Part shown: one piece after another, positions 41,444 to 43,409 of the stretch | Numbering within the stretch: position 1 is the stretch's first letter | Layout: each line of letters starts with the position of its first letter | Made by a program: the position numbers and the translations under genes | Notes under the pieces: generated by a model | The model's input: only the letters and a program-made list of their open reading frames with translations | Told to the model about the DNA's origin: nothing | Databases searched by the model: none | Assembly: GCA_016789265.1 (NCBI GenBank) | Contig: JAEUQK010000017.1 | Location: forward strand, 1-64,000 | Source: Blastocatellia bacterium | GTDB taxonomy: Bacteria; Acidobacteriota; Blastocatellia; Pyrinomonadales; Pyrinomonadaceae | Direction: 5' to 3' | Length of the DNA stretch: 64,000 nucleotides

Positions 41444-42163
41444 CTAGGGTTTGTCTATCGGTTCATCACTCAGCGCGGTGTCGATGTCTTTCTCAAATTT
41501 TATGCGGAGTCTTTCTACGAGGGCGTCTGAACGCTGGAGATTAAGATCAATGTTTGCCCTGTTTTTCTGAACCTCGGCAAGAAGTGATTGAAGGTTTGCC
41601 TTTTCCAGTTCTAATGACCGGCGACGTTGGGCACGAAGTTCTTCAGGGCGCAATGAACCCACCGACGAAAGCTGGCGTTCGATTGCCTCGGGCCTCATGT
41701 CAATGTCGATCTGGTCGATCCGCGATCTGATCGAATTCTCTTTTTCGATCATTTCGAAAAGCTGTTTCCTTAAGCTGTCCGATCTCTGTTCCGACTTAGT
41801 CAAAATATCCAGATTAAGCGCGAGCCGCTTTGCCTTTTCGTCAGGATCTTTTTTGCCACTGATCTGTTCAAGCCGGGCGAGTCTCTCGCGAAGTTCGGCT
41901 ATCTTTTCGGCGCTACCAGGATCCAGGACGCTGGAATTGGGATCGGTTCGATTCGAGGGCGGCGGTTCGATAACGACTGTCGGATATTCGTCCGCACGGC
42001 TTATGACCGCCGGCTCCGTTGCCTTTGGCGTGGGAGTCGGTGTGGGCTTCACGGCCGGTTTTCGTCTATTAGTTTGTCCTTCGACAGAAACTATAAAAAT
42101 AAGGAAGGAAAGTGCAGCAAATGCAAACACACCGGCCGCAAACCTAGGAACCGTTCGATCCAT
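41444..42163 (-). CDS. Membrane-anchored coiled-coil protein, unknown function
   Basis: 239 aa. One N-terminal hydrophobic segment (residues about 8-30, AGVFAFAALSFLIFIVSVEG) acts as a signal peptide or anchor. A Pro/Thr-rich linker with PTPTPTP follows, and then from about residue 85 to the end a long charged coiled coil (KIAELRERLARLEQISGKKD ... ELEKANLQSLLAEVQKNRAN). No catalytic motif. The layout suits a periplasmic spacer or structural protein. Its start overlaps the small gene upstream by 20 bp, so the two are probably cotranscribed. Confidence 0.7.
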   Translation of the reverse strand: MDRTVPRFAAGVFAFAALSFLIFIVSVEGQTNRRKPAVKPTPTPTPKATEPAVISRADEYPTVVIEPPPSNRTDPNSSVLDPGSAEKIAELRERLARLEQISGKKDPDEKAKRLALNLDILTKSEQRSDSLRKQLFEMIEKENSIRSRIDQIDIDMRPEAIERQLSSVGSLRPEELRAQRRRSLELEKANLQSLLAEVQKNRANIDLNLQRSDALVERLRIKFEKDIDTALSDEPIDKP

Positions 42164-42425
42164 TGTGATTCTCCTTTTTATCAGGGATGAAATCTTTCCG
42201 ACGCACTAGCTCGACCCCGTTCTTTAACAATCCGAGTACAGGTATGGCGTCCAACCCAGAATTTAGCACCCCCATTAAGAGTCCCTTGTTCTTTATGTCG
42301 CTTCCCACCAATACGATCGCAACAGCCGTTCCGCCGAAAGGCACCATCTTCGCCGCGCGTTTCGCTACCTGCCACCCGGCGGCATGTGCGATCGTACGCT
42401 TCAAACTTCGCTTTTCATTAGCCAT
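42144..42425 (-). CDS. Small protein with a hydrophobic centre, unknown function
   Basis: 93 aa. A basic N-terminus (NEKRSLKRTIAHAAGWQVAK) is followed by two moderately hydrophobic segments (GGTAVAIVLVGSDI and GLLMGVLNSGLDAIPVLGLL) and a charged tail ending HNGSNGS. Probably membrane-associated. I recognise no family. It overlaps the coiled-coil gene downstream by 20 bp and is divergent from the ABC-like gene at 42522. Confidence 0.6.
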   Translation of the reverse strand: MANEKRSLKRTIAHAAGWQVAKRAAKMVPFGGTAVAIVLVGSDIKNKGLLMGVLNSGLDAIPVLGLLKNGVELVRRKDFIPDKKENHNGSNGS

Positions 42426-42521
42426 CGAAATTTCAGTCTATACTTGCCTAAAATTGATGACAACAGCATACTTTTCTTTGCACGTAAAATCTCGCCAATT
42501 GTTCCTTGATCACTGCCAGAT

Positions 42522-43409
42522 ATGCCGTTAAAACTTGAGAATGCGTCAAAACGTGTTGGAAATCGATGGTACTATCGGGATGTTACACTCGAAGCGGTCG
42601 ATGGCGAGGTCTTTGCCGTTTACGGACCGAATGGGTCAGGAAAAGGAGAGTTGATAAGGTCGTTCGAGGACGTGGAGTATGTCACTGATCCGGGAATGAC
42701 CATATTTGGCCGTCGGCTGGGCAGAAAGCCGGAGTCGACGATCGATAGATCTAACCGACTTATTACTGCCATTGCAACTTCGACGCGGTCATTGGTCCTG
42801 GACGAGCCTTTTCGGGGACTAGATGATGGATCTATCGAGGTCTTGGCCTCGAAGATGAAAGAGGCAGCAGGCGAGCGAAACATACCGGTGCTTTTTTCAA
42901 CATCGAACTTCTCTCATGTACTGCTCGCCGCGCATCGGGCCCTTGTTATTGCCGACGGGCAAGTGCACCAGATCGGAACTCCGCAGGCTCTTTACGACGA
43001 ACCGGAGAATAGGACCACGGCCAGATTAACTGGACGAAATAACCTGATCGAGGCTCGACGGCTTACCTCTTCAAAATCTGAATTGCCTGAGTTCATAACG
43101 ATCCGCGGAGAACATCGATTATTCACCCAAAAAGTCGAACTCCGAACTCTCGGTGCGATCAATAAAAATTCCTTCCTCGCGATCCGGCCCGAACAGATCT
43201 CACTTTCGTTCGGTGCATCGTTTCCGGAAGACAACTTACTGAGAGCTGTTATTAGCGGAATACATTTTCAAGGAGCGACAACGGTCGTGTCTTTGACCTG
43301 TGGCGATCTGGCACTTGAGGCACTAGTTATGCGGCTTGTCGGCCTAAATGTGGGTGATGAGTGCATGGTCGGACTTCCGCCTGACCGCATCAGAGTCCTG
43401 GCTGCATGA
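42522..43409 (+). CDS. Degenerate ABC-ATPase-like protein with C-terminal TOBE-like domain
   Basis: 295 aa. The N-terminus looks like an importer ATPase of the PotA/FbpC/MalK type: Walker A-like GPNGSGKGE (residues 35-43, the usual Ser/Thr after Lys is Gly) and Walker B SLVLDEPFRGLDDG (90-103). Only 53 residues separate Walker A Lys41 from Walker B Asp94, against about 116 in MalK. The Q-loop, the helical subdomain and the LSGGQ signature are therefore missing. The switch His is absent too (VLFSTSNFS). The C-terminal ~120 residues (FLAIRPEQISLSF ... ECMVGLPPDRIRVL) resemble a TOBE domain. No permease or binding protein is adjacent. Probably not a transport ATPase; a regulatory or sensor derivative is possible. 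Confidence 0.75.
   Translation: MPLKLENASKRVGNRWYYRDVTLEAVDGEVFAVYGPNGSGKGELIRSFEDVEYVTDPGMTIFGRRLGRKPESTIDRSNRLITAIATSTRSLVLDEPFRGLDDGSIEVLASKMKEAAGERNIPVLFSTSNFSHVLLAAHRALVIADGQVHQIGTPQALYDEPENRTTARLTGRNNLIEARRLTSSKSELPEFITIRGEHRLFTQKVELRTLGAINKNSFLAIRPEQISLSFGASFPEDNLLRAVISGIHFQGATTVVSLTCGDLALEALVMRLVGLNVGDECMVGLPPDRIRVLAA

Follow-up and report, generated by a model that had tools for sequence, protein, structure and literature searches.

A pseudo-ABC-ATPase with a C-terminal TOBE regulatory domain in the Pyrinomonadaceae

ABC ATPases are usually held to require a helical subdomain and a paired signature motif, and the Q-loop and helical subdomain contact the coupling helices of the permease. 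ABC-F, SufC and PhnK use the ABC core outside transport and retain both the helical subdomain and the signature motif, whereas CFTR NBD1 and TAP1, with ATP sites that lack the full catalytic set, belong to a transporter or channel and have a complete nucleotide-binding domain fold. Molbindin-type TOBE proteins have a TOBE/OB fold. Two reports describe MalK as holding the activator MalT when transport is absent (PMC10427625) and the regulatory domains of FbpC and MalK as double OB-folds within the subunit dimer (PMC2896483). The protein described here resembles MalK of E. coli (PDB 2awn, 1q12) in the whole fold except for the helical subdomain, the C-terminal regulatory domain included, and differs from it in having no Q-loop, LSGGQ, switch histidine or permease. 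It would share a use outside transport with ABC-F, SufC and PhnK, but without the helical subdomain and signature motif that those proteins retain. It shares an incomplete catalytic set with CFTR NBD1 and TAP1, but neither their place in a transporter or channel nor their whole fold. As in molbindin-type proteins the TOBE/OB fold is the constrained part, to which a RecA-like core with conserved Walker residues is added. In the open literature, covered mostly as titles and the opening lines of abstracts, we found neither this protein family nor an ABC ATPase lacking the helical subdomain as the subject of a paper.

The gene lies on the forward strand at 42522..43409 of the window, by which we mean the whole stretch of 64,000 nucleotides that was analysed, from a Blastocatellia bacterium of the family Pyrinomonadaceae (contig JAEUQK010000017.1, positions 1 to 64,000). 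The frame, Pfam matches, an alignment and a structural model identify its product as a pseudo-ABC-ATPase of 295 amino acids with a C-terminal regulatory (TOBE) domain. A preliminary description had called the frame clean, and it is open from the ATG at 42522 to the stop at 43409. All features of the protein given below are on the same strand. The Walker A motif GPNGSGKG (residues 35-42; 42624..42647) retains Gly40 and Lys41 and has Gly42 in place of Ser/Thr, and the Walker B region (residues 90-95; 42789..42806) contains Asp94 and the Glu95 that follows it. The spacing from Lys41 to Asp94 is 53 residues, as had been stated against an expected value of about 116; of 18 full-length relatives that were read, 16 have 116 residues here and the other two have 119 and 123, and among 50 short forms the spacing ranges from 51 to 84. 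Residues 57-72 (42690..42737) mark the position of the lost Q-loop and helical subdomain in the alignment and the model. The D-loop (residues 98-101; 42813..42824) contains Asp101, and the former switch (H-loop) position is occupied by Thr-Ser-Asn (residues 127-129; 42900..42908), with Ser128 aligned to the switch histidine. The alignment thereby agrees with the earlier observation that the Q-loop, LSGGQ and the switch histidine are missing.

The C-terminal regulatory domain (residues 173-295; 43038..43406), the part under the strongest constraint in the short-form clade, contains a match to TOBE_2 (PF08402) at residues 219-293 (43176..43400) with 34.2 bits against a gathering cut-off of 21. 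The TOBE-like tail and the D-loop do remain, as had been proposed. The match to ABC_tran (PF00005) covers residues 19-66 only and, at 21.5 bits, is under the gathering cut-off of 25; three relatives (L062, L072 and L105) pass that cut-off with 47.0-53.1 bits, through the N-terminal part of the model only. The molbindin-type TOBE model (PF03459) gave 14.8 bits, under its gathering cut-off of 22.3. Modelled with AlphaFold2, the window protein (pLDDT 88.9, pTM 0.84) and L062 (pLDDT 89.4) both have the MalK fold minus the helical subdomain. A superposition of the window model on E. coli MalK (2awn_B) covers 283 residues with Z 25.1 and rmsd 2.9, and the fold match extends to MalK residue 360. A single helix (residues 73-86) separates the Walker A helix from Walker B in this model, and residues 57-68 have pLDDT below 50. 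Judged by sequence and modelled fold, the short form is a motorless member of the MalK-type ATPases.

Searches of 60 genomes returned 28 homologues, the window's own included, that align over their length, which excludes chance. In a class-wide profile search of 162 genomes, in which genomes were assigned by bit score to a short class (at least 350 bits, or the split G145) and a full-length class (210-315 bits), short forms were present in 53 genomes, 52 at or above 350 bits plus G145, where the gene is split over two contigs. Full-length orthologues were present in 21 genomes. All 74 genomes with either form belong to the Pyrinomonadaceae, and of the family's 119 genomes that were searched 53 carry the short form, with the deletion for which homologues were to be sought. 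A sample of 396 genomes taken evenly across the phylum yielded 25 matches at E 1e-38, all from the Pyrinomonadaceae. In the window's own genus the gene was found in 31 of 41 genomes; it was not found in the other 10, and the short form is therefore dispensable.

We read 50 short forms and 16 full-length family proteins letter by letter. One 5'-truncated gene at a contig end (L097) was excluded from all counts and trees, and two genes incomplete at one end (L122 and L109) were retained. The short forms come from several genera and all have open frames. Walker A Lys is present in 49 of the 50, Walker B Asp and D-loop Asp in all 50, and Walker A Ser/Thr in 47, while the remaining three have G (one) or R (two). 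The site of the catalytic Glu is occupied by Glu in 7, D in 21, N in 15, G in 4, S in 2 and R in 1; the switch His is found in a single short form and LSGGQ at the aligned place in none of the 50. By contrast, the Q-loop, LSGGQ, the Walker B Glu and the switch His are all intact in the full-length orthologues, and FQ(N/S)YALFPH, LSGGQ and VTHD were found at all 16 family loci read (15 in the motif table and L109 in the alignment). The full-length ATPase gene L109 (G072:C44:130839-131897) has one TAG within its frame, and this copy may be broken or misassembled.

This comparison changes the reading of two earlier statements. The glycine in Walker A is real in the window protein but is a local decay, since the family state is S/T in 47 of the 50; at this site in the alignment the window has G, and its two nearest relatives, L056 and L057, both have R. 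The spacing in this three-member branch is 51-53. Likewise, the helical subdomain is gone from the window protein, but many relatives retain a longer linker, with a worn signature. The main proposal of the preliminary description, a repurposed domain rather than a damaged importer gene, is supported: the loss is common to the 50 short forms and has one origin in the whole-protein tree, and the protein is under purifying selection. The sensing of a nucleotide or an oxyanion, which it also suggested, is a hypothesis. A strain-specific in-frame deletion is ruled out because these proteins share the loss across several genera, and an assembly artefact is rejected on the same ground. The full-length orthologues that we found all come from other genera of the family, where they lie in an importer operon.

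This operon consists of a binding protein (SBP_bac_6), the ATPase and a permease (BPD_transp_1, with two matched stretches), joined at many loci by a PIG-L gene. The SBP_bac_6 match at L109 scored 88.3 bits, and in G147 and G150 the binding-protein gene is on a different contig from the ATPase. Permease orthologues (at least 69% identity) occur in exactly the 21 genomes with a full-length ATPase, and binding-protein orthologues (at least 68% identity) in all of these plus G139, in which no ATPase match was found. Orthologues of the two partners were found in none of the 53 short-form genomes. A relocation of the partners within the window's genome was considered and rejected for this importer, as there was no match at E 1e-20. 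Partner matches at 27-31% identity in G010, G024, G035, G081, G089, G093, G096, G124 and a few others were taken for a different system. The nearest NCBIfam models of the full-length ATPase L107 are the PhnT2/PhnT (TIGR03265), PotA (NF006987) and ferric FbpC (NF008513) ATPases, with 361, 349 and 309 bits, respectively, all under the curated cut-offs, and the ModC model scores lower than these three. The proteins similar to its partners include PhnS2 and PhnU2. The importer set is thus near the 2-aminoethylphosphonate, ferric, polyamine and molybdate importers in NCBIfam, and we do not name the ancestral substrate because all scores are under the cut-offs. The short form of the window reached only 93 bits against the PhnT2 model.

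To place the short forms, we inferred a whole-protein tree of 68 rows with f8 proteins as the outgroup. The 50 short forms make up one clade (100/100), nested within the full-length proteins of the family with those of genus g29 as the sister group (98/98), and the branch leading to them is long (0.9). This tree supports a single origin of the loss. In a tree of the C-terminal part only (123 columns), a branch at 100/100 divides the short from the full-length family proteins; the distant outgroup, on a branch of 2.6, joins within the short forms, so that a single change cannot be read from this tree. For the direction of change we accordingly depend on the whole-protein tree, together with the canonical ABC motifs of the full-length forms and their operon. 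Ancestry from an importer ATPase and loss of the motor are well supported.

We estimated dN/dS for pairs of short forms with the Nei-Gojobori method, another check that the preliminary description had proposed. The values were about 0.07-0.18 in the closest pairs, for example 0.07 for L063/L064, 0.08 for L056/L057 and 0.18 for L098/L104, and in these pairs purifying selection extends to the ATPase part. Pairs with larger dS gave higher ratios, up to 0.60, which we set aside because dS is then close to saturation. Between the window protein and L056, dN was 0.22 in the C-terminal part and 0.48 in the ATPase part, with dS near or beyond saturation, as it is for the window against its nearest relatives generally.

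Constraint has been inverted between the two forms, the ATPase part being tightest in the full-length proteins and the regulatory domain tightest in the short forms. Mean pairwise identity among the short forms was 0.47 and 0.38 for two ATPase segments and 0.61 for the C-terminal part, while the corresponding values for the full-length proteins were 0.77 and 0.83 versus 0.54; the outgroup rows L119 and L120 were excluded from the full-length statistics, leaving 16 of 18. Of the two parts, the C-terminal one was the better conserved in 1214 of the 1225 pairs of short forms but in none of the 120 full-length pairs. Of the sites fixed in the full-length proteins, 72 of 115 in the fast-evolving ATPase part have been lost in the short forms, compared to 2 of 32 in the C-terminal part. 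The short forms also have 13 newly fixed sites, not counting M1, which is a trimming artefact; these include W16, F97, R179, G231-D237 (with P235-E236-D237), L239, R271 and E280. Part of the C-terminal change predates the loss, since the full-length g29 proteins already have GASFP, D237 and R271.

As the preliminary description had noted, no transporter partner adjoins the gene in the window, which is flanked upstream by a divergent gene for 93 amino acids (42144..42425, reverse strand) and downstream by a convergent gene with an OmpA domain. The small divergent protein is conserved in the Pyrinomonadaceae and had no Pfam or NCBIfam match. Its gene is single-copy (of 11 genomes tested, 10 gave a single match and one gave no match), and it flanks the full-length importer operon as well, where it was called at 8 of the 18 loci read; a profile built from 27 copies at short loci recovered all 8 operon copies (E 6e-28 to 6e-36). 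Apart from this gene, no neighbours were found to be common to short and full-length loci, and no conserved partner of the short form was found that names a target. The short-form gene is gone and the divergent neighbour is retained in G001, G016, G017 and G036, and the two are therefore not strictly coupled. In G011 and G035 the neighbours on either side are on separate contigs, and the divergent gene was found beside neither.

The spacer between the two genes contains a conserved element of 29 bp (42456..42484, forward strand), which probably belongs to a promoter region shared by the two divergent genes. Its mean column conservation was 0.88 upstream of the 50 short forms, and the best windows upstream of six other genes at these loci (c1, c2, c3, c4, c6 and an exporter gene) reached 0.64-0.77, some of them overlapping coding sequence. 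The best window upstream of the divergent gene was the same element (0.88). A regulon search found one copy in the window's genome, and 35 of the 119 family genomes have one copy each at three mismatches or fewer. A role as an operator for the short form was set aside, as the element persists in G017 and G036 after loss of the gene, and a role as a coding leader was dropped after inspection by eye, as its frame relative to the start codon varies between loci. A promoter-like site for the divergent gene (TTGTCA-17-TAGACT) lies across the element, although the scan gave 2 such sites against 0.8 in shuffles, which is weak evidence. Because the element outlasts the gene in G017 and G036 and coincides with this promoter-like site, a shared divergent promoter is the simpler reading, and the element is probably a compact promoter of this kind. 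It is also unusually conserved through its spacer and the following TTTGCACG, the last part of which a simple divergent promoter fails to explain.

Alongside the ancestry, partner loss, domain loss, selection and shifted constraint computed above, we lean, somewhat beyond an even chance, towards a pseudo-ABC-ATPase that has outlived its importer and now acts as a soluble protein, probably a dimer, with a regulatory or sensing role and perhaps a retained ability to bind nucleotide. Its source is the ATPase subunit of a binding-protein-dependent importer of the PhnT2/PotA/FbpC/MalK type, intact in other genera of the family. In the ancestor of the window's genus and its neighbouring genera the binding protein and permease were lost, and the ATPase shed the Q-loop and helical subdomain (the permease-docking part), the signature motif and the switch histidine. 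Given the known ABC mechanism, a protein lacking these parts would neither couple to a permease nor complete the ATP site of a partner. What remains is a RecA-like core, with the Walker A Lys, Walker B Asp and D-loop Asp, and a highly constrained double-OB/TOBE regulatory domain through which a soluble dimer would form as in MalK and FbpC. This domain would bind a ligand or protein partner and regulate it, comparable to the sequestration of MalT by idle MalK. The residue pattern, in which the Walker Lys and Asp are kept and the Glu and His are mostly gone, would suit nucleotide binding without turnover, and the core of most relatives can probably still hold a nucleotide that it does not cycle. 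For the window's own branch, with no Walker A Ser/Thr and a spacing of 51-53, such binding may be weaker or lost. Points against this reading are the genus members in which the gene was not found, the retention of the divergent neighbour in four genomes that have lost the gene, the long short-form branch, the fast evolution of the ATPase part, the Walker A decay in the window's branch, and that no conserved partner pointing to a target was found and that the two kinds of locus share only the small gene.

The constraint on the C-terminal domain, the TOBE_2 match and the decayed nucleotide-binding residues in the window's branch could also suggest a cytosolic ligand-binding or storage protein, in which the TOBE/OB part binds a small anion in the manner of molbindins and the core is a scaffold. 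We regard this as doubtful, since purifying selection still acts on the core, the Walker A Lys, Walker B Asp and D-loop Asp are kept in 49-50 of 50 short forms, PF03459 is under its cut-off (14.8 versus 22.3) and the full-length orthologue scores the PhnT2, PotA and ferric ATPase models above ModC. That the ATPase is a decaying vestige, eroding after transporter loss and furthest in the window's own branch, is unlikely. Such decay would fit the 10 of 41 genus members in which the short form was not found and the further reduction of Walker A and the spacing in the window, L056 and L057, but the frames are open in the window and in the other 49 short forms read, dN/dS is about 0.07-0.18 in close pairs (0.08 for the window's nearest relatives), there are new fixations such as W16, F97 and P235-E236-D237, and one origin has left descendants in several genera.

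Two further readings of the short form are less likely still. It would be quite improbable as a shared or accessory subunit of another transporter, after the model of MsmK-type ATPases that serve several permeases: the MalK architecture with its regulatory domain is retained and the same genome has matches to other ABC ATPases, but the Q-loop and helical subdomain with the coupling-helix contacts are missing, the LSGGQ needed to complete the site of a partner is lacking, and the cognate permease is absent. At L103 (8790-10960) and L105 (8806-10954) the short gene lies directly behind a gene with an MCE/MlaD domain, at a distance of 10-26 bp, in a possible operon. A part in an MCE/Mla-type envelope lipid pathway, to which this arrangement would point, is very improbable as it concerns only 2 of 50 loci, and no gene of this kind adjoins the short form in the gene clusters of the others. 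By analogy with MalK and FbpC, the short form most probably acts as a dimeric regulator or sensor.

More tentatively, and with less than even confidence, the family may represent a class of non-transport ABC proteins without the helical subdomain, in which an importer ATPase became, on a single occasion, a nucleotide-gated dimeric regulator with the TOBE domain as its working part. If this is true, the transition has been caught between living genera, with the importer partners in 21 genomes and the motorless survivor in 53. Throughout the clade, purifying selection has preserved Walker residues and regulatory domain in proteins that have neither helical subdomain nor signature motif and whose pump was lost. 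Since the importer operon and the orphan survivor occur in one family, an independent role of the regulatory domain and of a motorless ABC core would be directly testable in the Pyrinomonadaceae.
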